This document shows positions 8,273-36,921 of a stretch of DNA of 42,130 bases, in pieces. This DNA is from Deltaproteobacteria bacterium. GTDB lineage: Bacteria > Myxococcota > Myxococcia > Myxococcales > 40CM-4-68-19. Within the stretch, counting starts at the first letter, position 1, and every line of letters starts with the position of its first letter. Location: positions 1-42,130 of the forward strand of contig VBKI01000032.1 of the NCBI GenBank assembly GCA_005879535.1, in the 5' to 3' direction. Under the pieces are notes generated by a model. It saw nothing but the letters and a program-made list of their open reading frames with translations, did no database searches and was not told where the DNA came from. Both the position numbers and the translations under genes were made by a program.

Positions 8273-8301
8273 CTTTCAAACCAGAAGCAGGAGCGACGCG
8301 G

Positions 8302-9885
8302 ATGAACAGGAACGGGAACGAGACGAGCGACCGGGTGATCGTGTTCGACACCACCCTGCGCGACGGTGAGCAGGCCCCAGGCGGGAGCATGAACCTCTCG
8401 CAGAAGATGCAGGTGGCGAAGGCTCTCGCGGCGCTCGGCGTGGACGTGATGGAAGTCGGATTTCCCGTCGCGTCGCCAGGCGATTTCCAGGCCGTGGAAG
8501 CGATCTCCCGGCAAGTGGAGGGCCCCGTCATCTGCGCGCTCGCGCGCGCGCACCGGCCGGACATCGACGCCGTCCTCAAGGCGCTGGCGCCCGCGTCGCG
8601 CCGTCGGGTCCACGTCTTCCTCGCCACGAGCCCGATCCACCGCGAGCACAAGCTGCGGATGACGCAAGCGGAAGTGGTCCGCGTCGCCACCGGCGCCATC
8701 GAGTACGCGCGCGAGCGCTGCGACGACGTGGAGTTCTCCGCCGAGGACGCGGCACGCACGGAGCCGGACTTCCTCGTCGAAGTGGTGGAGCGCGCCATCG
8801 AGGCGGGCGCCACGACCATCAACATCCCCGACACCGTCGGGTACGCGGTGCCTTCGCACTTCGCCGCCATCATCGAGAACCTGCGCGCCAAGGTCCGCGG
8901 CATCGACCGCGTGGTGCTCAGCGTCCACTGCCATGACGATCTCGGCATGGCGGTAGCCAACAGCCTGGCGGCGCTCCAGGCGGGGGCGCGGCAGGTGGAG
9001 TGCACCGTCAACGGGATCGGCGAGCGCGCCGGGAACTGTTCGCTCGAGGAAGTGGTGATGGCGCTGCGCACGCGCCACGACTTCTTCGGCCTGCGCACGG
9101 GCATCCGTACGCAGCAGCTCTGCTCGGCGAGCCGGGTGGTGGCGGGAGCGACGGGATTCCACGTCGCGCGCAACAAGGCGGTGGTCGGGCAGAACGCCTT
9201 CGCCCACGAATCCGGCATCCACCAGCACGGGATGATCAACCACCAGCAGACGTACGAGGTGATGCGGCCCGAGGACGTCGGCTTCAAGAGCAGCAACCTC
9301 GTGCTCGGCAAGCACAGCGGCCGCCATGCGCTGAACGCGCGGCTGCACGATCTCGGCTACCAGCTCGAGCCGGAGCAGATCGACAAGGTATTCGAGGAGC
9401 TGAAGCGGCTCGCGGACAAGAAGAAGGAGATCTACGACGGCGACCTCGACGCGCTGCTCGTCGGCCTCTTCCAGAACGGGACGGCGCGCCGCTGGGAGCT
9501 GGCGAGCCTCAACGCGGTCAGCGGCACCGGCACGCCTCCCACTGCCGCCGTGTCGCTCCTCACCCGCGACGGGCGGAAGCTCGACGAGGCGGCCACCGGC
9601 GACGGTCCGGTCGACGCCGTCTTCAAGTGCATCGAGCGCATCACCGGCGTGAAAGCGCGTCTGCGCGACTTCACCATCGCGAGCGTCAGCGCCGGCGAGG
9701 ATGCGCAGGGTGAAGTGATCGTCGTCGTCGAGCACGAGGGCCGCACCTATCGCGGGCGCGGCCTGAGCACCGACATCGTCCTCGCCAGCGCCGAGGCCTA
9801 CCTGGAGGTGGTGAACCGAATCTCCGCGGGCCGCCTGCAGCGCAAGACGCCCCCCGAGCCCGAGGTGGTGTGTGGCGCAGTCTGA
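8302..9885 (+). CDS. leuA: 2-isopropylmalate synthase
   Basis: Commits 2-oxoisovalerate to leucine by condensing it with acetyl-CoA. The protein has 527 residues from ATG 8302. The TIM-barrel catalytic domain shows [15 protein letters not shown] at the start, the metal-binding [17 protein letters not shown] (HxH), and [15 protein letters not shown]. The C-terminal half holds the linker ([21 protein letters not shown]) and an allosteric region from about 390, probably sensing leucine. The start was chosen for GCAGGAG ending eight bases before 8302; the alternative ATG 8269 overlaps the ilvN stop as ATGA and adds 11 residues. Its 3' end overlaps leuC by 14 bases. Confidence 0.95.
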
Positions 9886-15688: not shown

Positions 15689-16669
15689 GTGGAACGCGTC
15701 CAGAGTACGGAGCTCGAAGGCCGGTCGACCGCCGGATCCAGAGGAACGACGGCGGCCGGTCCTCCGCGCATGTGGCTGAACGGCAAGCTCGTCTCGCCTT
15801 CGGAGGCGCGGTTGGACTTCCTCACGCCCGCGCTCCACTACGGAGTGGCGGCCTTCGAGGGGATCCGCTGTTACCGCACGGCGCGAGGGCCGGCCATCTT
15901 CAGGCTCGAGGAGCACGTCGAGCGGCTGATCCATTCGGCGCGCGTCCTCGGCTGGCGCGAGCTGCCGTTCGGTCTGGAGGAGCTGACCGCAGGCTGCACG
16001 GACGTGGTCCGCGCGAGCGGATTCGAGGAGTGCTACATCCGCCCTCTGATCTGGCTCGCGGAAGGCGGCTGGAACCTGACGGTCGACGGCGGCAAGGCGT
16101 ACGCGGGCATCGCCGTCTGGGAGTGGAAGGCGTATCTGGGGGCAGAGGCGCTGGAGCAGGGCGTTCGCGCCAACGTCTCCACCTTTACCCGTCACCACCC
16201 GAACGTGATGATGACCAAGGCGAAGATCAGCGGGAACTATCCCAACTCGGTGCTGGCGAAGACCGAGTCGCTGCGCCTCGGATTCGACGAGGCGATCATG
16301 CTCGATGCGCAGGGCATGGTGGCGGAGTGCACCGGCGAGAACATCTTCGTGGTGCGCCGCGGGCGCCTGGTCACGCCGCCTCCCGGGGCCATCCTGGAGG
16401 GCATCACCCGCGACTCGATCATGACGCTGGCGCGCGATCTGGGCCACGAAGTTGTCGAGCAGCCGGTCTCCCGCGACCAGCTCTACATCGCCGACGAGGT
16501 CTTCGTGACCGGGACCGCGGCGGAGGTGATCGGGCTGCGGGAGATCGACTTTCGTCCGATCGGCTCCGGCCGCGGAACGCCCGTCACGCGGGCGCTGCAG
16601 CAGGCGTACCACGCGGTGGTGCGTGGAGAGCATCCCCGCTCTGCGTCCTGGCTCACGTTCGTGAGCTGA
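15689..16669 (+). CDS. ilvE: Branched-chain amino acid aminotransferase
   Basis: PLP enzyme performing the last transamination to Val, Leu and Ile. From GTG 15689 it has 326 residues; from ATG 15770 it would have 299. Fold-type IV features are ALHYGVAAFEGIRCYRT, the PLP lysine in TKAKISGNYPNSVLAK, DEAIMLDAQGMVAECTGENIF, and GAILEGITRDSIM. GGAGG at 15680-15684 supports the GTG start, although spacing is short (4 bases). The extra N-terminal 27 residues are Gly/Ser/Thr-rich and not conserved in the family, so the ATG start remains possible. Last gene of the operon, 14 bases after ilvC. Confidence 0.93.
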   Translation: MERVQSTELEGRSTAGSRGTTAAGPPRMWLNGKLVSPSEARLDFLTPALHYGVAAFEGIRCYRTARGPAIFRLEEHVERLIHSARVLGWRELPFGLEELTAGCTDVVRASGFEECYIRPLIWLAEGGWNLTVDGGKAYAGIAVWEWKAYLGAEALEQGVRANVSTFTRHHPNVMMTKAKISGNYPNSVLAKTESLRLGFDEAIMLDAQGMVAECTGENIFVVRRGRLVTPPPGAILEGITRDSIMTLARDLGHEVVEQPVSRDQLYIADEVFVTGTAAEVIGLREIDFRPIGSGRGTPVTRALQQAYHAVVRGEHPRSASWLTFVS

Positions 16670-20513: not shown

Positions 20514-22617
20514 CATCCCGCGAGCCTTGGCCGCCATCTTCGCCGGGCTCTGCATCACGCTGTTCGTCGTCACCCCGCTCGATCTGCGCACGCAGTTCGC
20601 CCTCGCCGGTTCGCTCGTCGTCGCCGCGCTGATCCTCGGCCGCTCGCAGGGTCGACTCGCCACGCTCTCCCTGGTGCTGCTGTCGGTGGCGACCACCGGC
20701 CGCTACCTCTGGTGGCGCCTGGGAACGACGCTGTCGTCGGACTGGTCCTTCGACGCCGTGCTCAGCGGCATCCTCCTCGCGGCGGAGCTGTACGCCTGCG
20801 CGATGTTGTTGCTTGCGTATGCGCAGTCGATCGCCGGTCTCCGGCGCAAGCCGGTGCCGATGCCGCACGATCTCGCATCGTGGCCGAGCGTGGACGTCTT
20901 CATTCCCACCTACAACGAGCCGCTGGACATCGTACGCGCCACCGTCCTCGCCGCGGCGTCGCTCGACTGGCCCCGCGACCGCCTGCGCGTTTGGGTCCTC
21001 GACGACGGCCGCCGTCCGGGATTCCGCGAGTTCGCCGCCGAGGCGGGCGTCGGGTACGTCACGCGACCCGACAATGCCCGCGCAAAGGCCGGCAACCTGA
21101 ACCACGCCTTGGGCAAGACCAACGGCGAGTTCGTCGCGATCTTCGACTGCGACCACGTGCCCGTCCGGTCCTTCCTGCAGACCACGATGGGATGGCTCCT
21201 GCGCGATCCCAGGCTCGCGCTGGTGCAGACGCCGCACCACTTCTACTCGCTGGAGCCGTTCGGCCGGAACCTGGGCACCGCTCCGCGCGTGCCGGGCGAG
21301 AGCGAGCTGTTCTACGGCGTCATCCAGCCCGGCATCGATACCTGGAACGCGTCGTTCTTCTGCGGATCGTGCGCGGTCCTCCGCCGCAGCGCCCTGGACG
21401 ACGTCGGCGGCATCGCGGTGGAGACCGTCACCGAGGACGCTCACACCGCCTTGAAGATGCACCGGCGCGGATGGCGGACGGCCTATCTCGACGTTCCCCA
21501 GGCGGCCGGTCTTTCCACCGAGACCCTGGCGGCACATGTCGGGCAGCGGATCCGCTGGGCTCGGGGAATGGCGCAGATCTTCCGCGTGGACAACCCGATG
21601 TTCGGGCGCGGGCTCAAGCTCTCCCAGCGTCTCAGCTACTTCGCCGCGATGCTGCACTTCTTCTCCGGAGTACCGCGGCTGGTGTTCCTCTTGGCTCCGG
21701 TCGGCTACCTGGTGTTTGGCTGGCACATCTTCAACGCGCTGCCGCTCGCGGCGGTGGCGTACGGCCTGCCGCACCTGATCCATTCCACGGCGTGCAACGC
21801 GCGCATCCACGGCCGCTTCCGTCATTCGTTCTGGTCCGAGGTCTACGAGACGTGCCTCGCCTGGTACACCGCCATTCCCACCACGCTGGCGCTCATCGCG
21901 CCCCGCACCGGGAAGTTCAACGTCACCGCGAAGGGCGGCCGCGTCGACGTCCCGTACTTCGACGGCCGCATCGCGCTGCCCTACATCCTGCTCGCGGCCG
22001 TGAACCTGACCGCCATCGCCGCCGGAGCCTGGAAGCTGCGGATGGGTGACGGCGAGCTCGATTCGCTCGCCATCAACGCCGCCTGGGCGCTGCACAACCT
22101 GATCGTGCTCGCGGCAGCCATCGGTGCGGCGTGCGAGCGGCCGCAGGTCCGCGCCGCGCAGCGCGTGCCGGCGCGGCTCCCGGCGATGCTCCGCTTCGCC
22201 GACGGCACGACGGCAGCCGCGGAGACCCGCGACCTTGGACGCGATGGCGCCAGCGTCACCTTGCGCGCGCCAGTTCCCATGTCCCAGCGCGAGCAGGTCT
22301 GGCTTTCTCTCTTTTGCTTCGATGCGGAGCAGCCGCTCCCCGCCGAGGTACTCGACGCCGGGGGCCGCTCCGTTCGGGTGCGCTTCACGTCGCTCTCCCT
22401 CGAGCAGGAAGCGCATCTCGTCCGGGCCATCTTCTCGCGCGCGGATGCCTGGCTGGGTTGGGCCGACGGCCACCGCCGCGACCGGCCCCTGCTCACGTTG
22501 CTGTCCATTGCCCGCCACGGAGCGGCCGGAGTCGGCCGCGCACTCGCGCTGTCGATGCGCCCACCTCCCCGCGCGCTGCCTTCGCGCCTGCCGGTGCCTG
22601 CTCGGGGGCACGCATGA
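20497..22617 (+). CDS. bcsA: Cellulose synthase catalytic subunit (UDP-forming)
   Basis: Inner-membrane GT2 glycosyltransferase polymerising UDP-glucose, 706 residues. Several N-terminal membrane segments precede the GT domain: WVLDDG (166-171), DCD at 217-219, FFCGSCA near 287, TED at 312-314 and QRIRW at 350-354, i.e. the full D,D,D,QxxRW set. More membrane helices follow, then a PilZ domain with RAAQR (552-556) and DLGRDG (579-584). The PilZ consensus is RxxxR and DxSxxG, so the serine is replaced by glycine, which may change cyclic-di-GMP sensing. ATG 20497 was chosen because it overlaps bcsQ and gives a family-like N-terminus; its ribosome-binding site is GGGGGAGG, somewhat distant. Confidence 0.95.
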   Translation: MRGSSDIPRALAAIFAGLCITLFVVTPLDLRTQFALAGSLVVAALILGRSQGRLATLSLVLLSVATTGRYLWWRLGTTLSSDWSFDAVLSGILLAAELYACAMLLLAYAQSIAGLRRKPVPMPHDLASWPSVDVFIPTYNEPLDIVRATVLAAASLDWPRDRLRVWVLDDGRRPGFREFAAEAGVGYVTRPDNARAKAGNLNHALGKTNGEFVAIFDCDHVPVRSFLQTTMGWLLRDPRLALVQTPHHFYSLEPFGRNLGTAPRVPGESELFYGVIQPGIDTWNASFFCGSCAVLRRSALDDVGGIAVETVTEDAHTALKMHRRGWRTAYLDVPQAAGLSTETLAAHVGQRIRWARGMAQIFRVDNPMFGRGLKLSQRLSYFAAMLHFFSGVPRLVFLLAPVGYLVFGWHIFNALPLAAVAYGLPHLIHSTACNARIHGRFRHSFWSEVYETCLAWYTAIPTTLALIAPRTGKFNVTAKGGRVDVPYFDGRIALPYILLAAVNLTAIAAGAWKLRMGDGELDSLAINAAWALHNLIVLAAAIGAACERPQVRAAQRVPARLPAMLRFADGTTAAAETRDLGRDGASVTLRAPVPMSQREQVWLSLFCFDAEQPLPAEVLDAGGRSVRVRFTSLSLEQEAHLVRAIFSRADAWLGWADGHRRDRPLLTLLSIARHGAAGVGRALALSMRPPPRALPSRLPVPARGHA

Positions 22618-24671
22618 GGCTCGCGACCGCCGCCGCCGTACTGCTCTGCGCCGGAGCGGTTCGGGCGGAGAGATTCGTGGAGCTCGGTCCGACGCGTGCG
22701 CAGCGCGATTCCAGCGTGCCCGCGCTGGACTTTCCCTTCACGGCCCGCGCCGACGAGGAGCTGACGGGCGCGGCGGTCCGCATCGCGTTCGCCGGCCCGA
22801 TCGAGTCGATGGAAGTGCTGGTGAACGACGAGCGGGTCGCCCTCCTCACCGGAGACGATCCCCGCCCGCCGGACATCCCTGTCGCCCGCACCTTGCTCGC
22901 CGACCGCAACACGCTTTCGCTGCGGCTGCGCGATCGCGAAGGCCGCTGCGTCGCGAGGCAGGGTGCCTGGGCGGCGGTCCGCTCGATCGGCGTCGTCCTG
23001 CAGGCGAACCCGGTGCCTCTCCCCAACGAGATGGCGTTGCTCCCCTTGCCGTTCTTCGACCGCGGATACGACACGAGCGCGACGGTTCCGGTCGTGCTGG
23101 GCCATCCGCCTTCCCACGAGGAAGTGCGGCTCGCCGCCATGGTGGCGAGCTGGTTCGCGGTCGATGCGCCGATCCCCCTCGCCTTCGACGCGCGTGTCGG
23201 CACGCTTCCCGACTCGCGCGCGATCGTGCTGGTCGCCGGCAGCGCCGATGCATCGCGCCTGGGCATCGATCCGCCGCGTGGCCCGTCCATCCGCATGATC
23301 GACCATCCCGCCCATCCCGAGTCGAACGTGAAGCTGCTCGTGATCGGCGGCCGCACTGCCGAAGAACTGCGGGTTGCTGTCGAGAGCCTCGTCGCCCGCA
23401 GCGCGCGCCTGGCGGGACCGGAGGCGATGTTGCCGCGACCTCCGCCGCAGCCGCCCGCGGCGCCCTACTCCGCCCCGCGCTGGGTGCCCTCCGGACGGCC
23501 GGTGCCGTTCTCGCAGTATCCGTCGGGCAGCGTGTTCGCCCACGAAGGCAGCACCCCAGCAACGCTGGCGGTCCGGTTCCGCGTCGCTCCGGATCTGTGG
23601 ATCTGGCCCGCCGAGTTCGTGGTGCTCGACCTCGGCTACTCAGAACGGATCCCGCGCGGCGCGCTCCCGCCGCGGCTGGACGCGGAGATCAACGGATACT
23701 TCCTCGCCACGTTGCCGCGGGCGTCGCCCGGGAAGCCGCAGCGAGTCCGGCTGCGCATTCCCCGAGAGCACATGCGAGGGTTCAACCAGCTCCTCGTCCA
23801 CGTCCACTATCCCGATCCCGATCCATGCGCCGCGGTCCCCGCGTGGACGTCCGGTGAGTCGCCGCGGGTCGAGATCGCCGGCGACTCCGTCCTGCACGTG
23901 GAACACCTGAGCCATTTCTCGAACCTTCCCGACGTCTCGGCCTTCGCGTTCGACGGTTTTCCGTTCACGCGCGTGCCGGATCTCGGCGACACCGCCGTGG
24001 TGCTGCCGGAGCGGCCGTCTCCCGCCGAGCTGTCAATGGCGCTCTCGGTGCTCGGGCAGCTCGCGCAGATCACGGGCAGGGTGGCGACGCGCGCGACGTT
24101 CCCTCCCTCGTCCGAGATGCCGCGCGACCGCGACGTCCTCGCCATCGGTACACCCGACGACAACGCGCTGATCTCCCGCTGGTCCGTCGCCTTGCCCATC
24201 GCGCTGCAGGGAAAGTCAGCGCGGGTGCAGCGCACGTTCCGGCCGCTCGACCTGCTCGGCGGGCCGGAGCCGCTGCTCGACGCGCAGCGCGCCGGGGACC
24301 TCCTCTCGCGGTCGGCCGATGTCGCCGCCATCGCCGCCATCGAGTCTCCCGTCTCACCCGGCCGCGTCGCGGTGGTGATCACGGGGACGGCGATGCCGCG
24401 GTTCGCGGACTTCCTCGGATACGCGCAGAGCCGCGGCCGCGGCGGCGATCTCCTCATGCTCACCAACGGCGAGCGCGCGATGTTCCGCATCGGCGGTGCC
24501 TTCGGCCGGGGCGAGCTCGATACCTGGACCCGGGCGCGCTGGTTCCTCGCTACGCATTGGCTGGCGTTGCCGCCGGTCCTGCTGGTCGGCGCGGTATTGC
24601 TGGCGGCGCACGGCCGGCGCTTCCTGGCGCGGCGGATGCGCGCCCGGCTGACCGTCGGGGAGGCCGCATGA
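22614..24671 (+). CDS. bcsB: Cellulose synthase periplasmic subunit BcsB
   Basis: Partner of BcsA that anchors in the inner membrane and guides the glucan through the periplasm, 685 residues. A signal peptide (LATAAAVLLCAGAVRA) is followed by the paired carbohydrate-binding and flavodoxin-like domains. Family signatures include LLPLPFFDRGYD, the segment ending FQLxVxY-like (MRGFNQLLVHVHYPDPDPC), LHVEHLSHFSNLPDVSAFAF and FPFTRVPDLGDTAVVLP. A C-terminal membrane helix (LALPPVLLVGAVLLAAHG) ends in a basic tail, as in other BcsB. ATGA overlaps at both ends with bcsA and bcsZ. Confidence 0.95.
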   Translation: MRLATAAAVLLCAGAVRAERFVELGPTRAQRDSSVPALDFPFTARADEELTGAAVRIAFAGPIESMEVLVNDERVALLTGDDPRPPDIPVARTLLADRNTLSLRLRDREGRCVARQGAWAAVRSIGVVLQANPVPLPNEMALLPLPFFDRGYDTSATVPVVLGHPPSHEEVRLAAMVASWFAVDAPIPLAFDARVGTLPDSRAIVLVAGSADASRLGIDPPRGPSIRMIDHPAHPESNVKLLVIGGRTAEELRVAVESLVARSARLAGPEAMLPRPPPQPPAAPYSAPRWVPSGRPVPFSQYPSGSVFAHEGSTPATLAVRFRVAPDLWIWPAEFVVLDLGYSERIPRGALPPRLDAEINGYFLATLPRASPGKPQRVRLRIPREHMRGFNQLLVHVHYPDPDPCAAVPAWTSGESPRVEIAGDSVLHVEHLSHFSNLPDVSAFAFDGFPFTRVPDLGDTAVVLPERPSPAELSMALSVLGQLAQITGRVATRATFPPSSEMPRDRDVLAIGTPDDNALISRWSVALPIALQGKSARVQRTFRPLDLLGGPEPLLDAQRAGDLLSRSADVAAIAAIESPVSPGRVAVVITGTAMPRFADFLGYAQSRGRGGDLLMLTNGERAMFRIGGAFGRGELDTWTRARWFLATHWLALPPVLLVGAVLLAAHGRRFLARRMRARLTVGEAA

Positions 24672-25756
24672 TGGCCATGGTCGCCGGAGCGTTGCTCGCT
24701 GCCTCTCCCTGCGACGCTTCGTGGCCGTTGTGGACCCGGTACTCGGAGCGGTTCATCGCAGGTGACGGCCGCGTGATCGACCGCAGCGCATCGGAGCGGA
24801 GCACATCGGAAGGGCAGGCCTACGCGCTCTTCTTCGCCTTGGTCGCCAACGACCGGGCATCGTTCCAGCGCCTCCTCACCTGGACGGAGCAAAACCTCGC
24901 CCGCGGAGATCTCGGGCGCAACCTCCCGGCCTGGCACTGGGGAAAGCGGCGCGATGGCACCTGGGGCGTAATCGACAAGAACTCAGCGAGCGACGCCGAT
25001 CTCTGGATCGCCTATAGCCTGCTGGAAGCAGGACGGCTGTGGGCGGACGCCAGGTACACGGCGCTCGGCCGGCGCGTTCTCTCGAACGTCGCCTCCAGGG
25101 ATCTCGCGGAGGCCCCGCAGTTCGGCACGATCCTCCTTCCCGGACCGAGCGGCTTCTCCGTCAGCGGGGGGTTCCGGATCAATCCGAGCTATGCCCCGCC
25201 GCAGCTCCTGCGCAGGTTCGCGCAGCTGGGCGCGCCTTGGGATCGCGTGCTGCAAAGCTCGGTGCAGATGTTGCACCTCTTCGCCCAGGGTGGCGCTGCT
25301 CCCGACTGGGCGTTCGCCAAGGCGGGAACGCTCGTCGAAGACCCGGTGCACGGCAGGGTCGGCAGCTACGACGCCATCCGTGTCTACCTCTGGGTCGGCA
25401 CGATGCCCGACCGCGATCCGCAGCTCGATCGCATTGCCCAGGGCCTGCTGCGCGAATTGGAGAAGACGGCGGCGTTGCCCGAACGCATCGACGCGCGCAC
25501 GCTCGTCGCGCGCGGGTCGGCTCCACCGGGGTTCTACGCCGCGCTCATCCCCATCGCGCCCCCCGACGCGCGCCGCGCGCTCGAGGCGCGCGTCTCCGAG
25601 GCCCGCAAGGACGGCCTCTACGGCGACCCGCCGGCCTACTACGACCAGAACCTCATCCTGTTCGCGCAGGGATTCAGCGAGTCGCGCTACCGGTTCGGCG
25701 GCGACGGCTCGCTCGCACCTGCCTGGGAGACCCGATGCCTCGGGCGCGCACGCTGA
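24668..25756 (+). CDS. bcsZ: Cellulase BcsZ (GH8)
   Basis: Periplasmic endo-beta-1,4-glucanase of glycoside hydrolase family 8 that trims nascent cellulose, 362 residues. A short signal peptide (AMVAGALLAASPCDA) is followed by the domain: STSEGQAYALFFALVAND holds the general acid Glu48; KNSASDADLWIAYSLLEAGRLW carries Asp109/Asp111, one of them the probable base; then INPSYAPPQLLRRF, SYDAIRVYLW and YYDQNLILFAQGF. All catalytic residues are present. The ATG overlaps the bcsB stop, and the 3' end overlaps bcsC by 22 bases. Confidence 0.94.
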   Translation: MMAMVAGALLAASPCDASWPLWTRYSERFIAGDGRVIDRSASERSTSEGQAYALFFALVANDRASFQRLLTWTEQNLARGDLGRNLPAWHWGKRRDGTWGVIDKNSASDADLWIAYSLLEAGRLWADARYTALGRRVLSNVASRDLAEAPQFGTILLPGPSGFSVSGGFRINPSYAPPQLLRRFAQLGAPWDRVLQSSVQMLHLFAQGGAAPDWAFAKAGTLVEDPVHGRVGSYDAIRVYLWVGTMPDRDPQLDRIAQGLLRELEKTAALPERIDARTLVARGSAPPGFYAALIPIAPPDARRALEARVSEARKDGLYGDPPAYYDQNLILFAQGFSESRYRFGGDGSLAPAWETRCLGRAR

Positions 25757-28700
25757 TTGCCATCCTGGCGATGGCGTCCGCGGCGCTCGCGGACGACCTT
25801 CTCGGCGGCCTCGTCCGCAACGCCTGGTACTGGCAGGCGCGGGCCCGCTCCGACAAGGCCGACGATGCCTGGAAGCAGGTGCTGGAGGTGGCGCCGGACA
25901 ATGCCGAGGCGCTCGCGGCAGTCGGCGGCTTCAGCGCCCGCGCCGGCCGCATGCAGCAGGCGCGAGAGATGCTCGCGCGGCTCGAGAAGGTGGCGCCCAA
26001 CCATCCCGACGTTCCCGTGCTGCGACGGCAGATCGAGCTCGGCCCCCGTTTCGGCGCCTTGCTGCTGGACGCGCGCAAGCTGATCCACGAAGGCCACCCG
26101 GCTGCAGGAGCGGCGAAATACCGCGAGCTGTTCGGCCCGGCAGGGCCGCCTGGAGATCTCGCGCTCGAGTACTACCAGACCGCCAGCGGCGCCCCGGAAG
26201 GGTGGCAGGAGGCCCGCGACGGCTTGCGACGGCTGGTGCGGCGCGCGCCCGCGGAGGTCCGATACAAGCTCGCGCTCGCGAAGCTCCTCACGTATCGCGA
26301 CGAGACCCGCCGCGAGGGAATCACCATGCTGGCGGCGCTGGCGCGCGACCCGACCATCGGCAAGGACGCCGCCGCGGGCTGGCGGCAGGCGCTTCTCTGG
26401 CTCACGCCGACCGAGCGCGACGTCGCCCTCTACCGCGACTGGCTGAGGGGACACCCGAAGGACATGGAGGTCAAGCTCCACCTCGAGCGGGCGCGAAACG
26501 CGGCCACGATCCGCGAAGGATTTGCCGCGCTGGACCGCGGGGACATGCGCGAGGCGCAGAGGTTGTTCGATCTGGCGGGCAAGGATCCCGACGCAGTGCA
26601 CGGCCGCGCGCTGATCGCCGGCCGCCGCGCTGCCCAGGCGAAGAAGTCAGGGTTCGCGGCGCTCGACCGCGACGATCTCACTGCTGCCGAGTCCTACTTC
26701 CGTTCGATTCCCGCCGATGCCGACACCCGGCTCGGTCTGGCGCTGATCGCCCAGAAGCAGGCGGCGCAAGCGCAGCGCAACGAGGACTTCCCCAAGGCGC
26801 GCGAGCTCCTCGAGCGCGCCCGCAGGCTGGTTCCCGACCGACGCGACGTCTGGGAGCGACAGCTCCAGGGCGTGGTCTTCTGGTCCCGGTTGCGCGACGC
26901 GCGCATCGCCCGGGAGGAGGGTCGCGACAACGATGCGGAGGCCGCGCTGCGGGCAGCCATCGACGGCGGTGTGCCACAGGAGCGCTGGCACGCGCGCCTG
27001 GCGCTCGCCGACCTCATGCTCGAGAGCGGCCGGCCCGGCGAAGCGGAGACGAATCTGCGCGAAGTGCTGGTTTCCGTGCCGGACGAGACCTCCGCGCTGC
27101 GCGCTCTCGCCGGTCTGCTCGTGCAGCAGCGCCGGTTCGAGGAGGCGATTCCCGTCAACGAACGCCTCGCCAAGGTGGCGCCGCAATACTCCTATCGGGC
27201 CGGCTGGCTGCGCGCGGAGATGCTGCGCACCGAGGCGGCGAAGAGCCGGCAGGCGCACGAATTCGCCCGGGCGCGCCAGCAGCTCGGCGAAGCGCGCGAG
27301 GCCGATCCGTCGGACGTCTGGGTGCTGCACGATCTCACCAACGTCCTCTTGCAGTTGAATGCCCTCCCCGAAGCGCAGAGCGCGGTCGCCGCCTTGTTGC
27401 GCTTTGCCCCGGAGCTGCCGGAAGCGCGGGTGGCGCAGGCGCGCGTGCTCGCTGCCGCCCACCAGGATATCCAGGCCCTGGCGATCCTGCGGTCCCTGTC
27501 GCCGCCTCCGCGCGATCCGGCAGTGCTGGCACTTCGGCGCCGCCTGGAATTCCAGGTCCGCATCCCGCCGGCGCTGGAGCTCGCCATCACCGGAAGGCGG
27601 GACGAGGCGGTGCGCGAGCTGGAAGCGATGGAGGCGGAGGCCAAAGGACAGCCCGAGCTCGTCGCGCAGCTCGCCGTCGCCTGGTCGAAGATCGGCGACC
27701 GCGCAAAGGCGTCGGCGCTCATGCGCGACGCCATGGCACGCGGTCCGGCGGCGACGCGCGCCGCGCGTCTGGAGCTCGCCTCGACCCTGCTCGACTCGGA
27801 CGACGACGCCTTCCTCGGAGAGATCCTGCGCGGCCTCGATCGGGATCCCTCGCTGACGCCGGCAGAGCGCCGCTCGCTCGGCGACCTCCGCGTCGCTCAT
27901 GCCGTCCGGCTTGCCGATCGCCAGCGCGAGCAGGGCGATCTCCGCGCAGCGGAAGCTGCTCTGTCCGCGGCGCTGCGCGACTATCCGCGCGACCCCCTGC
28001 TGCTCGCTGCGCTGGCGCGGACCCGGGAGCAGGAGGGAAACATGGACGCGGCGCACGGCCTCTACCTCGAGGTGCTGCGCGCGGTTCCGAACGACGGCGA
28101 CGCGCTGCGAGGCGCAGTCGACACGGCGTTGGCGCGGGGCGACGTGGACGAGGCGCGAGGGCTGCTGCGCGGCGCGACCGCCCCCGGGCAACCGGACGAT
28201 CCCAGGCTCCTGCAGCTCGCCGCCCACCTCGAAGAACGCGAGGGCGACGACGCCGAGGCCATGCGCCTGCTCCGCCGCGCCTCGGCACTGGCGCGCAGCG
28301 AGGTGTTCCGGACCACGCAGATTCCGCAGGAAGGAATCGGCCGCGGGATGAACCCGGAAGGAACGCCGCGGCTCGCCGCGCGGACCGATCCCGAGGTCCT
28401 GCACTCGGAGATCGCCCGCGACATGCAGCGTATCGAGAGCCGCCATCGCCCCGCCATCGGCGGCGACGTCGGATTCCGGCAGCGCAAGGGTGAGCCGGGC
28501 TTGAGCGCGCTCAGCGAATATCGCGGCGCCGCGAACGTCGAGGTGCCCATCGCGCTGTCCGGCAGGCTCACGCTGCGCATCTCCGAGGTCCAGCTCGATG
28601 CGGGATCCGTATCGGCCTCGGCGGGATCCCGTTTCGGAACCGGAGCGGTGGGCGGCGCCGGCCCGCAGCGGGCGCTGGGAACGGAGCTCCATGCGACGTT

Positions 28701-29457
28701 CGAGAGCCGCCATCTCGTCGCCGATGTCGGTGCGACGCCGCTCGGGTTCCCCATCCTCGCGGCGGTGGGCGGCGTACGACTGCGCGGCAACATGGGTCCG
28801 CTCTTCGTCGCGGCAGAGGGGTCGAGCCGCAGCGTCACCGACAGCTTCGTCTCCATGGCGGCGGCCCGCGATCCGGCGACCGGGACTTTGTGGGGCGGCG
28901 TGCTCCTGCAAGGCGGCCGGCTCGATCTCTCGGTGAACGGCCGCATCGGGTCGATCTACGCGTACGGCGAAGGCGGACGGCTGATCGGCCTGCGCGTGCT
29001 CGAAAACCGGCGCTTCGCCGGAGGCGGCGGAGCGGAGCTGGCGCTCGGAGCGGGTCCGCTGGGAGAGTTCCGGCTCGGTCCGGCCTTCACCGCGCTCGCG
29101 TTCGAGAACAACCAGCGCTTCTTCACCTTCGGCAACGGCGGCTACTTCAGCCCGCAGCGTTTTTTCCACGGGGCCGGCGTCCTCCGCTGGCAACACCCGG
29201 GAGCGGTGAGGTGGGACGCCGCGGCGGAGCCCGGCTACGATTGGTACCAGGAAGCGCACGCGCCGATCCTGCCGTTCGATCCGAACAGCGGGTTCTATGC
29301 CGGCAAGACGGAGGGCGGATTTTCGTTCACGGGGCGCGCCTTTCTCGGGATCGGCCTCGGCGGAGGATTCGAGCTGGGCCTCTCTGGCGCGGTGCAGCGA
29401 GCGCCGGAGTTCCAGGAAGTTCGCGCCGGCGTCGTCCTGCGCGCCGCCGGACTCTGA
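25735..29457 (+). CDS. bcsC: Cellulose export outer-membrane protein BcsC
   Basis: Exports cellulose across the outer membrane, 1240 residues, the usual size. The signal peptide ends ASAALA-DD. A long superhelix of TPR repeats (about 30 to 850), rich in Ala, Leu and Arg, spans the periplasm. The C-terminal BCSC-type domain (about 890-1240) is a beta-barrel: alternating Gly/aromatic strands, FGNGGYFSPQRFF, NSGFYAGKTEGGFSF, and a terminal short strand GVVLRAAGL. The start ATG 25735 overlaps bcsZ. The last gene of the operon is followed by a terminator-like hairpin. Confidence 0.94.
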   Translation: MPRARTLIAILAMASAALADDLLGGLVRNAWYWQARARSDKADDAWKQVLEVAPDNAEALAAVGGFSARAGRMQQAREMLARLEKVAPNHPDVPVLRRQIELGPRFGALLLDARKLIHEGHPAAGAAKYRELFGPAGPPGDLALEYYQTASGAPEGWQEARDGLRRLVRRAPAEVRYKLALAKLLTYRDETRREGITMLAALARDPTIGKDAAAGWRQALLWLTPTERDVALYRDWLRGHPKDMEVKLHLERARNAATIREGFAALDRGDMREAQRLFDLAGKDPDAVHGRALIAGRRAAQAKKSGFAALDRDDLTAAESYFRSIPADADTRLGLALIAQKQAAQAQRNEDFPKARELLERARRLVPDRRDVWERQLQGVVFWSRLRDARIAREEGRDNDAEAALRAAIDGGVPQERWHARLALADLMLESGRPGEAETNLREVLVSVPDETSALRALAGLLVQQRRFEEAIPVNERLAKVAPQYSYRAGWLRAEMLRTEAAKSRQAHEFARARQQLGEAREADPSDVWVLHDLTNVLLQLNALPEAQSAVAALLRFAPELPEARVAQARVLAAAHQDIQALAILRSLSPPPRDPAVLALRRRLEFQVRIPPALELAITGRRDEAVRELEAMEAEAKGQPELVAQLAVAWSKIGDRAKASALMRDAMARGPAATRAARLELASTLLDSDDDAFLGEILRGLDRDPSLTPAERRSLGDLRVAHAVRLADRQREQGDLRAAEAALSAALRDYPRDPLLLAALARTREQEGNMDAAHGLYLEVLRAVPNDGDALRGAVDTALARGDVDEARGLLRGATAPGQPDDPRLLQLAAHLEEREGDDAEAMRLLRRASALARSEVFRTTQIPQEGIGRGMNPEGTPRLAARTDPEVLHSEIARDMQRIESRHRPAIGGDVGFRQRKGEPGLSALSEYRGAANVEVPIALSGRLTLRISEVQLDAGSVSASAGSRFGTGAVGGAGPQRALGTELHATFESRHLVADVGATPLGFPILAAVGGVRLRGNMGPLFVAAEGSSRSVTDSFVSMAAARDPATGTLWGGVLLQGGRLDLSVNGRIGSIYAYGEGGRLIGLRVLENRRFAGGGGAELALGAGPLGEFRLGPAFTALAFENNQRFFTFGNGGYFSPQRFFHGAGVLRWQHPGAVRWDAAAEPGYDWYQEAHAPILPFDPNSGFYAGKTEGGFSFTGRAFLGIGLGGGFELGLSGAVQRAPEFQEVRAGVVLRAAGL

Positions 29458-29557: not shown

Positions 29558-30067
29558 ATGTTGCTGCGCGTCCCCATCGCCGCGCTTCTCGTCGCCGGAT
29601 GCATCGGCGGCGTCGATCGGGCGCAGTGCGCCATCGATCCCGACTGCGCCCAGCCCGCGTTCTGCGCGCAGGGCACATGCATCGAAGGGACGAGGACTTG
29701 CCCCGTTCTGCAGCCCACGTTCTCGAGCATCAACTTGCACTTCATCCAGGTGGGCTGCGGCGTCCGCCAGCTGAATTGCCACGCCACGGACTCAGCGAAC
29801 GTGAACAGTGGGCCGAGTTTCTTCGGACACCCGTATGCGAACCTCGTCAACGCGTCGGCCGCGAATCAGCTGGGAAGCGCCCGCGGACTCGTGCTGGTGA
29901 AGGCCGGCGATCCGCAGGGCTCGTTCTTGCTCACCAAGCTGCGCCTGACCTCGGCACTCGATCCGACGTACGGAGGCGGCCAGCCGGCAGACGCGCCGGG
30001 CTCGACGTGCGCGGATGCGTTGGCGGCGATCGAGCAGTGGATCCAAAGCGGGGCCCCGGACAACTGA
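29558..30067 (+). CDS. Lipoprotein with CX6CH motif, probably cytochrome-like
   Basis: A 169-residue lipoprotein: MLLRVPIAALLVAGC with lipidated Cys15. A cysteine knot-like segment CAIDPDCAQPAFCAQGTC (24-41) is typical of myxobacterial surface proteins. The main domain has FIQVGCGVRQLNCHATDSA, then SGPSFFGHPYANLV, LVKAGDPQGSFLLTKLRL and an end AIEQWIQSGAPDN. This is the layout of planctomycete/myxobacterial PSCyt-type c domains, but the heme motif is C67-X6-C74-H75, not CXXCH. Whether heme is bound cannot be told. It is followed one base later by the tandem-Rieske gene, so both likely act in one electron-transfer unit at the cell surface or periplasm. Confidence 0.7.
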   Translation: MLLRVPIAALLVAGCIGGVDRAQCAIDPDCAQPAFCAQGTCIEGTRTCPVLQPTFSSINLHFIQVGCGVRQLNCHATDSANVNSGPSFFGHPYANLVNASAANQLGSARGLVLVKAGDPQGSFLLTKLRLTSALDPTYGGGQPADAPGSTCADALAAIEQWIQSGAPDN

Positions 30068-30068
30068 A

Positions 30069-30878
30069 ATGGCCGACTTCTCGCGAAGATCGATGATCCG
30101 CACCGCGGCGCTCGTCTCCCTGGCGGCGAAGGTCGGCTGCGTGCGCCGCATCTCGCCCAACCGTTCCCTCAGCGTTCCCGCGCCGGTCGATGGCGATGTG
30201 ACGATCCCGCTGGCGCAGGCGTCCGAGTTGTCGACCGCCGGCGGCGCCGTCATCGCCCAGCCGCTGGGCGAGCCTGGGGGATATCTGATCGCGAATACTG
30301 GTACCGGTTTCGTCGCGCTGGGAGCGACGTGTCCGCACGAGGGTTGCTCCGTCGCGTGGGTCCCGGAAGATCGCGAGGCCGAATGCCCTTGCCACGGCTC
30401 CCGCTTTGCCGGAGACGGGACCGTCCTGAATCCTCCCGCACAGAGCGATCTCGCAACCTATCCGGTGGCGCCCGACGGGCAGGGGAACCTCATCGTTCAG
30501 CTCTTCGCCGGCACGGGCGCCTTGAAGGATCTCCGCGTCAGCGACGGGGAGTTCAGCTTTGCGATCGCGGACTTTCCCGCCCTGGCGACAGTGGGAGGCA
30601 TCGTCGCCGGCCGTCCGACCGGATTCCCCAGCCCGCTGCTCATCACCCGCCTCCCCTTGGAAAGCGGGCCAGATGCGGTTGCGGCGATCGACGCCATCTG
30701 CACGCACCTCGGGTGCACCGTCCTGCCCGGAGCCGGCGAGCTGGACTGTCCGTGTCACGGCTCGATCTTCAATCTCGCCGGCGGATTCGTGCAGGGCCCG
30801 GCGGGAGGAGGCCTACTCCGGTACGTAGTGGCCTTCGACGGCACGACGGTCACCGTATCCACCACGTTCCGCGCCTGA
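30069..30878 (+). CDS. Tandem (double) Rieske [2Fe-2S] protein
   Basis: A 269-residue protein with two complete Rieske domains. Domain 1: TCPHEGC with C88/H90, ECPCHGSRF with C106/H109, and a likely disulfide C93-C108. Domain 2: CTHLGC with C211/H213, DCPCHGSIF with C227/H230, and disulfide C216-C229. Both match the high-potential bc1/b6f pattern CxHxGC...CPCHGS. The N-terminus, DFSRRSMIRTAALVSLAA, looks like a twin-arginine export signal followed by GC at 23-24, so it could also be lipidated. It is coupled to the upstream CX6CH lipoprotein. No cytochrome b gene is nearby, so it is not an ordinary bc1 operon. Proteins with two Rieske domains in tandem are rare as far as I know. Confidence 0.9.
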   Translation: MADFSRRSMIRTAALVSLAAKVGCVRRISPNRSLSVPAPVDGDVTIPLAQASELSTAGGAVIAQPLGEPGGYLIANTGTGFVALGATCPHEGCSVAWVPEDREAECPCHGSRFAGDGTVLNPPAQSDLATYPVAPDGQGNLIVQLFAGTGALKDLRVSDGEFSFAIADFPALATVGGIVAGRPTGFPSPLLITRLPLESGPDAVAAIDAICTHLGCTVLPGAGELDCPCHGSIFNLAGGFVQGPAGGGLLRYVVAFDGTTVTVSTTFRA

Positions 30879-30884
30879 GGGAGG

Positions 30885-31361
30885 TTACTGGGGCTGGTTC
30901 TGTCCCCGGATCTCGCCGGCCGGATTCGAGCTGGTGTGGATGTTCGTGTACGTGCCGCGGGCGCGCATGGCGGAGAGCATCGAGTTGATGTCGCCGGCGA
31001 CGATGGTCTGGCTCGGCGTGGTCCCCGCCCGCACGTCGGAACCCGTGAACGACCCGGTGAAGGTTCCCGACGTGGCGGCCGGCGGCGTGAATGGCACTAC
31101 CACCGTACCGCCTTCGGTCGAGGTGCCGACATGGATGTGGCCCATGGTGGCGTTCCCCGACAGACCGCTGAACGTGACCGTGTAGCTGACGGTCGAGCCG
31201 CTGACTGTGTACGTCGCGCTTCCCGTCGCCGACGCGTTCGGATGAGGCGAAGCCGGAACCTCGTTGGCGCTGCTCATTGTCGCGGTGAACTTCGTGGCTG
31301 GCCCTGACGACCCTCCGCAAGCCGCCAGCGCGCAGGCTGCAGAAATCAATGCCGTTTTCAT
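30885..31361 (-). CDS. CHRD-domain lipoprotein
   Basis: A 158-residue lipoprotein (MKTALISAACALAAC, Cys15) with a CHRD domain: FTATMSSANEVPASPHPN, TYTVSGSTVSYTVTFSGLSG, ATMGHIHVGTSTEGGTVVV, FTGSFTGSDVRAG and YTNIHTSSNPAGEIRGQ. The conserved His-containing loops (GHIH, NIHT) and the terminal PAGEIRG are diagnostic. CHRD domains are found in many bacterial surface proteins; their function is not known. It converges on the Rieske gene with a six-base gap. The 126 bases between it and the next minus-strand gene hold no other gene. Confidence 0.88.
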   Translation of the reverse strand: MKTALISAACALAACGGSSGPATKFTATMSSANEVPASPHPNASATGSATYTVSGSTVSYTVTFSGLSGNATMGHIHVGTSTEGGTVVVPFTPPAATSGTFTGSFTGSDVRAGTTPSQTIVAGDINSMLSAMRARGTYTNIHTSSNPAGEIRGQNQPQ

Positions 31362-31487: not shown

Positions 31488-33263
31488 CTAGTGAAGCGCA
31501 GTGCCCGAGACCCCGGCCTGGCCGGTCTGGGCGATCCAGCCGTCCACCCGCTTCTCCAGCACGTCCAGCGGCATGGCGCCGCCGCCCAGCACCTCGTCGT
31601 GGAAGCCGCGGATGTCGAAGCGCGCCCCCAGCTGCTTCTTCGCGCGATCGCGCAGCTCGAGGATCTTGAGCTGGCCAATCTTGTATCCCAGCGCCTGCGC
31701 CGGCCAGGCCATGTACCGGTCGGTCTCGCTCTGCACCGTGGGCTCGTCGATGCCGGAATTGGCGTGGAAGTAGTCGACCACCTGCTGGCGCGTCCAGCGC
31801 TTGAAGTGGAAACCTGTGTCCACCACCAGCCGGATCGCGCGCAAGAGATCGTCCTGCAGGTGTCCGTACATGCTGTACGGATCCTGGAAGAAGCCCGCAT
31901 CCTGTCCCAGCCGCTCGGAGTACAGGCCCCATCCTTCGATGAACGCGACGTAGAACGCGTGCTGCCGGAAGGGGGGCAAGCTCGGCAGCTCCTGGGCGAT
32001 CGACACTTGAAGATGATGCCCGGGAACGCCTTCGTGGTACGCGGTGGTCTCGATGTCGACGGTCGTTCGCTTCTCGAAGTCGCCGGTGTTCACCATCACG
32101 TGGCCCGGTCGCTTGCCGTCCGGCGTCCCGTCGACGTATTGCGCGCCCGAGGCTTCCTTCTCGCGGTAAGGCTCGACCGGCATCACCTCCACCTTCGCCT
32201 TCGGCAGCCGCCCGAAGTACTGCGGCAAGCGCGCCGACATCTGATCGATGTACTTCCGGTACTGCTCGAGCATCTGCTCGCGCGACTTCGGATGGAGATC
32301 CGGGTTTTTCGCGATGGCGGCGTCGAACGACTTCAGATCCTTGTAGCCGAGCCGGTTCGCGATCTTCAGCATCAACGCCCGGTCGCGAGCGACCTCTCGC
32401 AGGCCGAGCTGGTGGATCTCCTCCGGCGACATCTTCGTCGTGGTCGACTGCTCGACGGCGTACGCGTAGCGCGCGGCGCCGTCCGGCAGCGCCCAGATGC
32501 CAGGCTCCGCGCGGCCCTTCGGGACGTACTCCTCCTGGACGAACTTGGTGAAGCGCTGGTACGCGGGCCGGATCCCGTCGCGGATCGCGGCCAGCATTTG
32601 CTCGCGGATGCGCGTCTTGTCCGCCTCGGGGAAGCCCGCGGGGATCTTCTTCGCCGGCTCGAAGAACGGGTTCGCCTCCGGCTCGGCGTCGGCGATCTTC
32701 GCCGACTGCCGCGCCACCTGCTCGAGCAAAATCCGCGGCGGCACCAGCTTGTCGTCGACGCCTTTGCGCATCAGCTCGGTGATTTGCGCGAACGCGATGG
32801 GAAGCAGCCGGAGCCGGGCGATGTAGTCGTCGTAGTCCTTCACCGTCTCGAAGGAGAGGACGGAGACGAGCTGCGGCGCGTTGATGTGGATGCCGCCGAA
32901 CTGCGAGACGGGCATCTCCCAGTCCTTGAACGGCACTCCCTCGAGCTGCACCCGGATCTGCCGCACCATCAGCGCGTGATTGAGCGCCTCCTGCTCGGGA
33001 AATCCCTGCACGCCGACGGCGAGGAAACGGGCGAGGAACTGCGTCTGCGCCTCGATGTCCGTGTAGATCGCCTTCTCGGAGAAATCGGTGATCTTGTCGT
33101 TGTAGCGCTTGTCGCCCAGGACCGATGCGTACTCCGGATTGGTCCGCATCGTGTATTCCCAGTGCTCGGACAAGAGGTCGGCGAGCTGCTGGCGCCGGGA
33201 ATCGACGGTGCCGGGAGCGATCTGGGCGACGAGGACGGCGACGAGGACGAAAGCGCTGGGCAT
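31488..33263 (-). CDS. DUF885 family metallopeptidase (paralogue 1)
   Basis: A probable secreted zinc peptidase, 591 residues from ATG 33263, whose start MPSAFVLVAVLVAQIA gives a signal peptide; an upstream ATG at 33347 adds 28 unlikely residues. The family's zinc motif is HEGVPGHHLQ (about 410-419), with EGWGLYSE following as the third-ligand region, and MSPEEIHQLGLREV is another DUF885 landmark. The C-terminus includes PAQALGYKIGQLKILELR. Related to the peptidase at 35170-36921, but clearly divergent. Substrate unknown. A clear ribosome-binding site is not seen. Confidence 0.88.
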   Translation of the reverse strand: MPSAFVLVAVLVAQIAPGTVDSRRQQLADLLSEHWEYTMRTNPEYASVLGDKRYNDKITDFSEKAIYTDIEAQTQFLARFLAVGVQGFPEQEALNHALMVRQIRVQLEGVPFKDWEMPVSQFGGIHINAPQLVSVLSFETVKDYDDYIARLRLLPIAFAQITELMRKGVDDKLVPPRILLEQVARQSAKIADAEPEANPFFEPAKKIPAGFPEADKTRIREQMLAAIRDGIRPAYQRFTKFVQEEYVPKGRAEPGIWALPDGAARYAYAVEQSTTTKMSPEEIHQLGLREVARDRALMLKIANRLGYKDLKSFDAAIAKNPDLHPKSREQMLEQYRKYIDQMSARLPQYFGRLPKAKVEVMPVEPYREKEASGAQYVDGTPDGKRPGHVMVNTGDFEKRTTVDIETTAYHEGVPGHHLQVSIAQELPSLPPFRQHAFYVAFIEGWGLYSERLGQDAGFFQDPYSMYGHLQDDLLRAIRLVVDTGFHFKRWTRQQVVDYFHANSGIDEPTVQSETDRYMAWPAQALGYKIGQLKILELRDRAKKQLGARFDIRGFHDEVLGGGAMPLDVLEKRVDGWIAQTGQAGVSGTALH

Positions 33264-33402
33264 GAGGTCTCGATACGAAGCAGCCCGCCCGGCATTTCGC
33301 CGATGCACACTCGCGGACGACGGGCCGACATGGAACTGGAGTTTCACCGCCAGTCATTTATTGGGTGTCGGGCGCAATCCTCGCGCCGAAAGGGAGGGGC
33401 GA

Positions 33403-35169: not shown

Positions 35170-36921
35170 TCATCGCCGCTGTTGGGCGATGAACGCGCGA
35201 ACATTTTCCTCAAGAACGTCAAGGGGAAGCGCGCCGCTCCCGAGCACTGCGTCATGAAAGGTGCGCACGTCGAACTTCGCTCCCAGCTCCTTTGACGCAA
35301 GCGCTCGCAGCTCCTTGAGCTTGAGCTCTCCGATCTTGTATGCGAGCGCCTGGCCAGGCATGACGATGTAGCGGTCGATCTCGACCACGATGTCGTGCTC
35401 GGTCTTGGCGGAGTTCTGGCGGAAGTAGTCGATCGCCTGGTCCCGGCTCCAGCCCAGCGCGTGCATCCCCGTGTCCACCACGAGACGGATCGCGCGCCAC
35501 ATCTCGTAAGTGAGCTGACCGAACTGCGAATAGGGGTCCTGGTACATCCCCAGCTCCGGCCCGAGGCTCTCTGCGTACAGCCCCCAGCCTTCGACGAAGG
35601 CGACGTAACGCGACGTCTTGCGGAACTCGGGCACCGACGTGAGCTCCTGGGAGATGGCGATCTGCAGATGATGGCCCGGCACCGACTCGTGGAGCGTCAG
35701 CGCCTCCATCTCCCACTTCGGTCGGGTATCCAGCTTGTACGTGTTGACGAAGTAGCTTCCCGGCCGATGCGCCTCCGGCGAGCCCTGGCGGTAGTACGCG
35801 GTCGTCTGCGAAGGTGCTGAAAAAGCAGGGATTTCCACGACTCCATAGGGCAGCCGCGGGAGCTTGCCGAAGAGGCGGGTCAGCTCCGGATCGATTCGCT
35901 TGGCGATGTCGCGGTACTCGCGGACCAGTTCGCGCGCATCGGTGAAGTAGAAGCGTGCGTCGGTCCGCAGGAAAGTGGCGAAGTCCGCGAGCGTCCCCTT
36001 GAAGCCGACGCGCGCCAGCACCTTCTCCATCTCGCCGCGGATCCGCTTCACCTCGGAAAGGCCGAGCTGGTGGATCTCGTGCGGCGTGAGCGAGGTGGTG
36101 GTCTCGCGCCGGACGCGCTCGAGGTACCAGTCGACGCCCTCCGGCAACGCCGAGAGCGCAACGGTTTCGCGGGCGTGCGGCAGGTATGCGGAGACGAAGT
36201 ACTCCCGCAGCTTCCGGTACGCAGGGACGATCTTCTCGCGGTAGATGCGCACGGCGTCCGTGCGCGCCTCTTCGGAAATCCCCTCCGGCAGCTTGGCGAA
36301 CGCCTTGAGCAGAGGGGCCTGCAGGGGATCCTCCGGCGTTTGCGCATCGAGCTGAGCGGCGACGTCGCGCAGGACCACGCGAGGGGAGACGACGCCAGTC
36401 TCCACTCCGCGCCGCAGTCGCGCCTCGACCTGCGCCATGCGCTGCGGAACGGCGTCGAGGCGCGCGACGATGTCCTGGTAGTCGCGCGCGGTGCGCGCCG
36501 GCATGATGTCCAGCGTGCTCGAGAGGTACTGCGGTCCGGCGAGCTGCGTGATGGCGAGCAGCTCGCGGGGAAAGCGCTGCGCGGCGAGGTCGTCGTCGAC
36601 GTCGCGGCGGAAGAGGTCGTAGTTGACCTGATCCTGCGCGTCGACCTTCCTGCGGTCGATGGCGGAGAGCGCCTGGCCGAGCGACACCGTCTCGTGCTTG
36701 CGTCGCTCGATGGCCTCGAGCGATTCGTCGGTCCAGCGGTTGTTGTAACCGGCGACGCCGCGCGAGGTCGCGAGCTCGGGATGCTCGGCGTTGTCGTACT
36801 GCCACGCCAGATCGAAGAGCCGGTGGAGCTTCTGCGGGTCCTTCGCCTTGCTGCGGGCGAGCTCGGCGAGCGATTCCTGGAAGGGTGTAGCGGCGGCGAG
36901 AACGAGAACGAGAGCGAGCAT
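35170..36921 (-). CDS. DUF885 family metallopeptidase (paralogue 2)
   Basis: A 583-residue member of the same family as the gene at 31488-33263. The signal peptide is short (MLALVLVLAAATPF). The zinc motif HESVPGHHLQ, the following VAFVEGWGLYAESLG, LTPHEIHQLGLSEV, and the C-terminal PGQALAYKIGELKLKELR all match. It starts nine bases behind the thioesterase gene, so it is co-transcribed. Two differing family members within 6 kb suggest duplication followed by divergence. Confidence 0.88.
   Translation of the reverse strand: MLALVLVLAAATPFQESLAELARSKAKDPQKLHRLFDLAWQYDNAEHPELATSRGVAGYNNRWTDESLEAIERRKHETVSLGQALSAIDRRKVDAQDQVNYDLFRRDVDDDLAAQRFPRELLAITQLAGPQYLSSTLDIMPARTARDYQDIVARLDAVPQRMAQVEARLRRGVETGVVSPRVVLRDVAAQLDAQTPEDPLQAPLLKAFAKLPEGISEEARTDAVRIYREKIVPAYRKLREYFVSAYLPHARETVALSALPEGVDWYLERVRRETTTSLTPHEIHQLGLSEVKRIRGEMEKVLARVGFKGTLADFATFLRTDARFYFTDARELVREYRDIAKRIDPELTRLFGKLPRLPYGVVEIPAFSAPSQTTAYYRQGSPEAHRPGSYFVNTYKLDTRPKWEMEALTLHESVPGHHLQIAISQELTSVPEFRKTSRYVAFVEGWGLYAESLGPELGMYQDPYSQFGQLTYEMWRAIRLVVDTGMHALGWSRDQAIDYFRQNSAKTEHDIVVEIDRYIVMPGQALAYKIGELKLKELRALASKELGAKFDVRTFHDAVLGSGALPLDVLEENVRAFIAQQRR

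Follow-up and report, generated by a model that had tools for sequence, protein, structure and literature searches.

The window (the whole 42,130-nucleotide stretch of soil myxobacterial DNA that was analysed) encodes a protein with two Rieske sites in a single chain. With moderate confidence, we propose that this lipoprotein serves as the electron carrier in an envelope redox module of three to four proteins present in part of the Myxococcota. The other proposed members are a YceI-type lipocalin and a four-helix b561-like membrane protein with two predicted hemes, with a cytochrome-c-like lipoprotein as a fourth member in the window's family only. This proposal is founded on the linkage of the genes, the architecture of the proteins and the way in which the module is divided in the window genome. 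A search of the open-access literature (subscription papers and preprints being outside its scope) found no description of a tandem Rieske/b561-like/YceI module. The finding is real and conserved, apparently undescribed in that literature yet recognisable in kind. Its gene set is kept in well-studied organisms, including a Myxococcus xanthus strain and Anaeromyxobacter sp. PSR-1.

The tandem Rieske protein

The window lies on contig C32 of a 5.16 Mb genome in 118 contigs (G000). The reading frames and coordinates of the two genes were verified, with a 169 amino acid lipoprotein encoded at 29558..30067 (+) and, after an intergenic gap of 1 base (30068), the ATG of the 269 amino acid tandem Rieske protein at 30069 (gene at 30069..30878, +), confirming that the Rieske gene lies one base behind that of the CX6CH lipoprotein. 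The Pfam Rieske model PF00355 matched two stretches of the protein (E 1.6e-21, 76.4 bits compared to a cut-off of 20.3) and both sites, CPHEGC...CPCHGSRF (30330..30401, +, as far as CPCHGS) and CTHLGC...CPCHGSIF (30699..30764, +, likewise), retain complete ligand sets and disulfide pairs, as the original prediction had stated for these 269 residues. Chance or a frame error as the origin of the tandem was ruled out, as full-length relatives are present in 69 out of 195 genomes from the phylum. The protein would be a rare natural example of a single chain that carries two Rieske clusters.

Cys24 (30138..30140, +) stands at the lipobox position, with an unusual Lys at -3, and is conserved in 18 of 18 aligned tandem proteins, while twin Arg residues are present in 17 of the 18, the remaining one lacking its start. 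The window protein is therefore predicted to be a Tat-type lipoprotein anchored to a membrane, supporting the earlier view of it as an exported two-Rieske electron carrier; the cell surface as its site, suggested in the original prediction, is putative. The description of its sites as high-potential had to be toned down. At site 1 of the 18 tandem proteins the Ser is present in 17 and the aromatic position is always Phe (18/18), never Tyr; at site 2 the Ser is present in all 18 and the aromatic position is Phe in 14 and Tyr in 3, with one gap. The window protein keeps the Ser but has Phe instead of Tyr at both sites and, as mutants of bc1 Rieske proteins with Phe for Tyr have a lower potential, its clusters are probably of intermediate to high potential. 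Its best NCBIfam match was the b6f PetC model, below the cut-off of that model. It resembles the Rieske subunit of bc1 and b6f complexes (PetC/QcrA) in its cluster ligands, disulfide pair and the Ser of CPCHGS, but differs in having two clusters per chain, a predicted lipoprotein anchor, Phe for Tyr and no PF00033-type cytochrome b beside it.

A tree of the domains was built from 93 rows (31 of 40 tandem and 31 of 45 single domains were taken, with near-copies excluded by hand). First domains grouped together in 29 of 31 cases (SH-aLRT 86) and second domains in 30 of 31 (SH-aLRT 89), the latter group also containing two single domains; one first domain (L129_d1) strayed, and the protein of L159 appeared as a separate duplication (97). 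Because first domains cluster apart from second domains, one old tandem is favoured over a recent duplication. Duplication and fusion, the two origins considered in the original prediction, are both compatible with such an old tandem. The L159 protein (7194-8726), from another Myxococcales MAG, is an independent tandem Rieske whose two domains are each other's nearest kin. In a further protein (L078 9073-9861, -) the second Rieske site lacks exactly its two disulfide Cys while retaining all four ligands, a natural test of disulfide pairing.

Linked genes in the Myxococcota

Tandem Rieske genes were found at 74 loci in 69 of the 195 Myxococcota genomes, taking matches at about E 1e-60 or better; G016 (residues 1-151, 3e-46) was dropped along with every weaker match, most of these being to single domains, while G001 (residues 79-255) was included, as were G006 and G011, in which contig ends cut the gene. 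A b561-like gene lies within 5 kb of the tandem Rieske gene at 64 of the 74 loci, on the same strand in 64 of 64, with a median gap of about 650 bases, and so the earlier statement that no cytochrome b or other respiratory gene is adjacent is true in the window but does not extend to its relatives. By genome, 68 hold both genes, 1 the tandem Rieske only, 16 the b561-like gene only and 110 neither (Fisher p 1e-35, this test and the linkage count both being uncorrected for kinship; second rows for G050, G143 and G144 in the b561-like list were dropped as duplicates of listed genomes). The single exception among the 69 tandem genomes is G010, in which the contig begins at the spot and a C-terminal piece of the b561-like protein is still visible (L117). 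The Rieske protein is not essential to the b561-like gene, as shown by the 16 genomes that hold the latter without a full tandem Rieske.

A second, named set of loci was obtained by scanning contigs with a narrow pattern, and 80 loci were kept. Two sites lay in one frame at 37 loci (L115-L151) and at L159; a b561-like gene was found at 31 of the 37 and a YceI gene at 27, compared to neither at any of the 42 single-Rieske loci. The tandem hosts are Myxococcota or unplaced Deltaproteobacteria MAGs, with the exception of one record, and include the M. xanthus strain (L138), Corallococcus, Archangium, Pyxidicoccus, Citreicoccus and Anaeromyxobacter (among them Anaeromyxobacter sp. PSR-1, L127). 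The exception, which carries the module, is labelled Comamonas sp. KCTC 72670 (L142), a label that looks wrong.

Gene order varies, being YceI, lipoprotein, b561-like and tandem Rieske in G008 and G002, and b561-like, YceI and Rieske in family f4; in Anaeromyxobacter (family f6, where L127 and G037:C311 are one contig) YceI accompanies Rieske and the b561-like gene lies past a sigma gene. The YceI proteins of relatives match PF04264 above its cut-off (39.8 bits compared to 23.7, E 7.8e-10, for L064). Tandem Rieske genes stand among other genes in G004, G005 and G007. A second tandem-Rieske context was seen in L065 (3219-8106), L066 (5827-10626) and L070 (6553-11076), comprising a large CXXCH protein (weakly PSCyt2/DUF1585-type), a weakly DUF1501-type protein, the Rieske protein and a short protein of unknown kind, which in L070 is incomplete.

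The b561-like family, aligned in 36 rows, has four conserved His (in 36, 36, 36 and 35 rows, the last with one gap) and no other conserved His. In an AlphaFold model (36 rows, pLDDT 89.3) helices span residues 38-84, 94-117, 130-157 and 163-190, with His 58, 97, 134 and 171 placed one on each. The cytochrome b561 plan is of about 130 residues in four consecutive helices in which only H1-H4 are fully conserved, one per helix, with H1 and H3 placed on the non-cytoplasmic face, opposite H2 and H4 on the cytoplasmic one (PMC10691727); the b561-like protein has this layout of one conserved His on each of four consecutive helices. Only 3 of the 36 members reached E 0.01 with Pfam PF01292 (best 21.6 bits, under the cut-off of 30.1), and PF03188, searched over 189 genomes, had two matches (G066 and G170). 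A PDB sequence search with the family profile gave no match, nor did Foldseek with the model at E 0.001 or better, and hhalign of the family gave no support against one PF03188 member (probability 3.6) or against cytochrome b. Structure comparison gave Z 10.5 for b561 4o6y (rmsd 3.1, 132 residues) and Z 11.9 for b6, with designed helical bundles higher at Z 13.9. The four-His pattern and the model agree with the b561 plan but, as sequence, profile and fold searches tie the family to b561 weakly or not at all, we describe it as b561-like in layout only.

In the window genome the module is split. Contig C52 (L108 7371-8485) holds a YceI and b561-like gene pair between def and a methyltransferase gene, followed by alaS (these three names were taken from reading the translations, not from a family search), and the YceI gene (G000:C52:12439-12882) matched PF04264 at 46 bits. 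The sister genome G006 has the same pair, also between def and the methyltransferase gene. The def-alaS neighbourhood holds the whole operon, including lipoprotein and Rieske, in G008, and YceI, b561-like and Rieske genes in G001. In both the window and G006 the lipoprotein-Rieske pair stands alone, its genes one or a few bases apart. As the window genome keeps YceI and b561-like genes at the site which holds the whole operon in relatives, the window pair may be a separated half of the module or, possibly, an older second copy which took over after loss. Sequence comparison put the window Rieske protein at 66% with that of G006, 62% with a lone copy on contig C342 of G002 and 49% with the copy in the full operon on contig C334 of G002, a genome with two tandem Rieske genes of which the C342 one is alone and close to that of the window. 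Because its closest kin are those of G006 and the lone G002 copy, a simple transposition out of the def-alaS operon accounts for the pair no better than an older duplication with later loss. No match to cytochrome b PF00033 was found on contig C32; two are present elsewhere in the window genome (C102 and C84), each adjoining another Rieske gene, and thus the tandem-Rieske module is not the only candidate Rieske-based quinol oxidase of this genome.

The CX6CH lipoprotein

The lipoprotein (lipobox LVAG|C) has a Cys-rich N-terminal part and a cytochrome-c-like (PSCyt1-like) C-terminal domain carrying the CX6CH motif, Cys67...Cys74-His75 (C-GVRQLN-CH; 29756..29782, +). Pfam has no family for it. 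The TIGR03806 model (SO2930-type diheme cytochrome c) was matched by a close relative at E 4.2e-6, and all 10 relatives scanned had hits to PSCyt1 or cytochrome c models with E no higher than 1, only one of them at cut-off (L206, 22 bits), and so the domain, judged by these matches, is part of a broad myxococcal cytochrome-like group. An AlphaFold model from 5 rows reached a pLDDT of only 37.

An alignment of 32 rows, from which L207 is absent (it gave no row) and from which L050 was excluded as the same gene as L208, showed C-to-CH spacings of 2, 3, 4, 5, 6 or 9; the relatives had been chosen by a pattern requiring C...CH, and the invariance of C...CH is thus partly built in. Among close relatives CX6CH is kept in G006 and three others have CX9CH. 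A Met at position 142, a candidate axial ligand, is present in 30 of the 32 rows, and is replaced by Gln in the window (29981..29983, +) and G006, exactly the two CX6CH forms. The window protein therefore departs from the usual c-type arrangement of CXXCH with an axial Met or His, and covalent heme on it is doubtful given both the variable spacing, from 2 to 9, and the Met to Gln change. What it shares with PSCyt1/SO2930-type cytochrome c domains is a C-terminal domain that can be aligned with relatives having CX2CH and CX4CH; it differs in its CX6CH and in Gln for Met, and any heme on it is putative. The simplest reading of these sequences would be heme loss in the window and G006 lipoproteins. 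The cytochrome-like layout that was first noted is supported at the level of the domain. CX6CH as a new conserved heme motif was rejected on the range of spacings among relatives, and this removes a false lead, CX6CH being a drifted form of a variable loop without a constant partner.

Close members of the lipoprotein family were found in 5 of the 195 genomes, all of them in the window's family (5 of the 12 family genomes searched), with the next matches at E 8e-19 or weaker. Compared to the tandem Rieske in 69 of 195, this answers in the negative the question, raised by the original prediction, of whether the CX6CH partner is always adjacent to the two-Rieske architecture. Rather than a working cytochrome, the window lipoprotein is probably a partner for docking or assembly whose heme site has degenerated.

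Possible functions of the module and its surroundings

In the proposed module, the b561-like protein would bind two hemes b, one through His 1 and 3 and the other through His 2 and 4, and exchange electrons with the menaquinone pool, and YceI would hold an isoprenoid quinone. A relay would then run from the quinone pool through the b561-like hemes and the YceI carrier to the tandem Rieske protein, which would take electrons on the periplasmic side and pass them on via its second cluster to an acceptor. Possible acceptors are a c-type cytochrome and, within the envelope, lipid radicals or oxidants. Which way the electrons would flow is conjectural.

The nearest known system is that of Burkholderia cenocepacia, in which the cytochrome b561 LcoA and the YceI lipocalin BcnA are encoded together and limit lipid peroxidation in a defence against peroxyl radicals, with a proposal that the b561 re-reduces lipocalin-held quinone (PMC9113575). 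We propose that our module follows this plan with a two-cluster lipoprotein carrier in addition. It similarly places the gene for a membrane protein of four-His, b561-like layout beside a YceI gene, but it adds a two-cluster Rieske lipoprotein, its b561-like protein is not recognisable as a Pfam b561 and its function is putative. It could be a variant of LcoA/BcnA for defence against lipid radicals or oxidants, in which the tandem Rieske keeps lipocalin-bound quinone reduced or oxidised. The b561 and YceI genes do make up the LcoA/BcnA gene pair (PMC9113575), and ECF sigma genes were identified by Pfam near the module in four of the neighbourhoods examined (G002, G003, G008 and G037; L061, L064, L072 and L114), with an RskA-type anti-sigma gene in that of G008 (L064); these sigma genes, few in number, would fit a stress role. 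The L071 sigma gene is a BLAST relative of that of L072, which adjoins a DUF4384-like gene. However, the LcoA/BcnA report makes no mention of Rieske proteins (PMC9113575), and neither hhalign nor Pfam established homology of the b561-like protein to LcoA, so that we consider this specific role possible but rather unlikely. The module would connect Rieske chemistry with b561-YceI antioxidant systems in a way that can be tested.

The original prediction of a self-contained relay would have the lipoprotein and tandem Rieske working as two proteins on their own, with the b561-like and YceI link in relatives a matter of history without present function here. That the pair stands alone in the window and in G006, and that both have changed the lipoprotein alike (CX6CH, Met to Gln), would be expected of such a relay, but both genomes still hold YceI and b561-like genes elsewhere, the b561-like gene being adjacent in relatives, and the lipoprotein is present in 5 of 195 genomes compared to the tandem Rieske in 69, making this account improbable. 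A bc-like quinol oxidase built from other parts, which would combine a b561-like diheme b with Rieske clusters and a c-type lipoprotein to bifurcate quinol electrons, is more doubtful still, for although genes for these three kinds of cofactor protein adjoin one another in G008 and G002 and the first Rieske domain resembles b6f PetC, the c-like lipoprotein is missing at most loci, conventional cytochrome b genes adjoin Rieske genes elsewhere in the window genome and there is no demonstrable Qo-site signature. It is conceivable, as something of a long shot, that the module is a bc-complex analogue of separate origin. A minimal diheme b protein of four helices, without kinship to cytochrome b, would then deliver quinol electrons to the envelope together with the two-cluster Rieske lipoprotein and a YceI quinone carrier, the clusters forming either a fixed wire of two steps or a pair of one-electron acceptors for each quinol.

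Upstream of the pair in the window is a cellulose synthase cluster (20527-29457, +; bcsA with PilZ, bcsB, a GH8 gene and bcsC), which is preceded by a class IV aminotransferase gene (15770-16669) and whose bcsC ends about 100 bp before the pair. Membership of the pair in this cluster was rejected since in G006 the pair directly follows the class IV aminotransferase gene, and its neighbourhood is therefore not fixed. Convergent with the tandem Rieske gene is a gene for a CHRD-domain protein (30885..31361, -), whose link to the Rieske is uncertain; the same convergent arrangement with a CHRD-domain gene recurs in G002 (L060) and, in family f6, in two genomes (L071 and L072, with four CHRD stretches in L072). 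Beyond it, two DUF885 proteins (E about 1e-174) are encoded near each other at 31488-33347 (-) and 35170-36921 (-).
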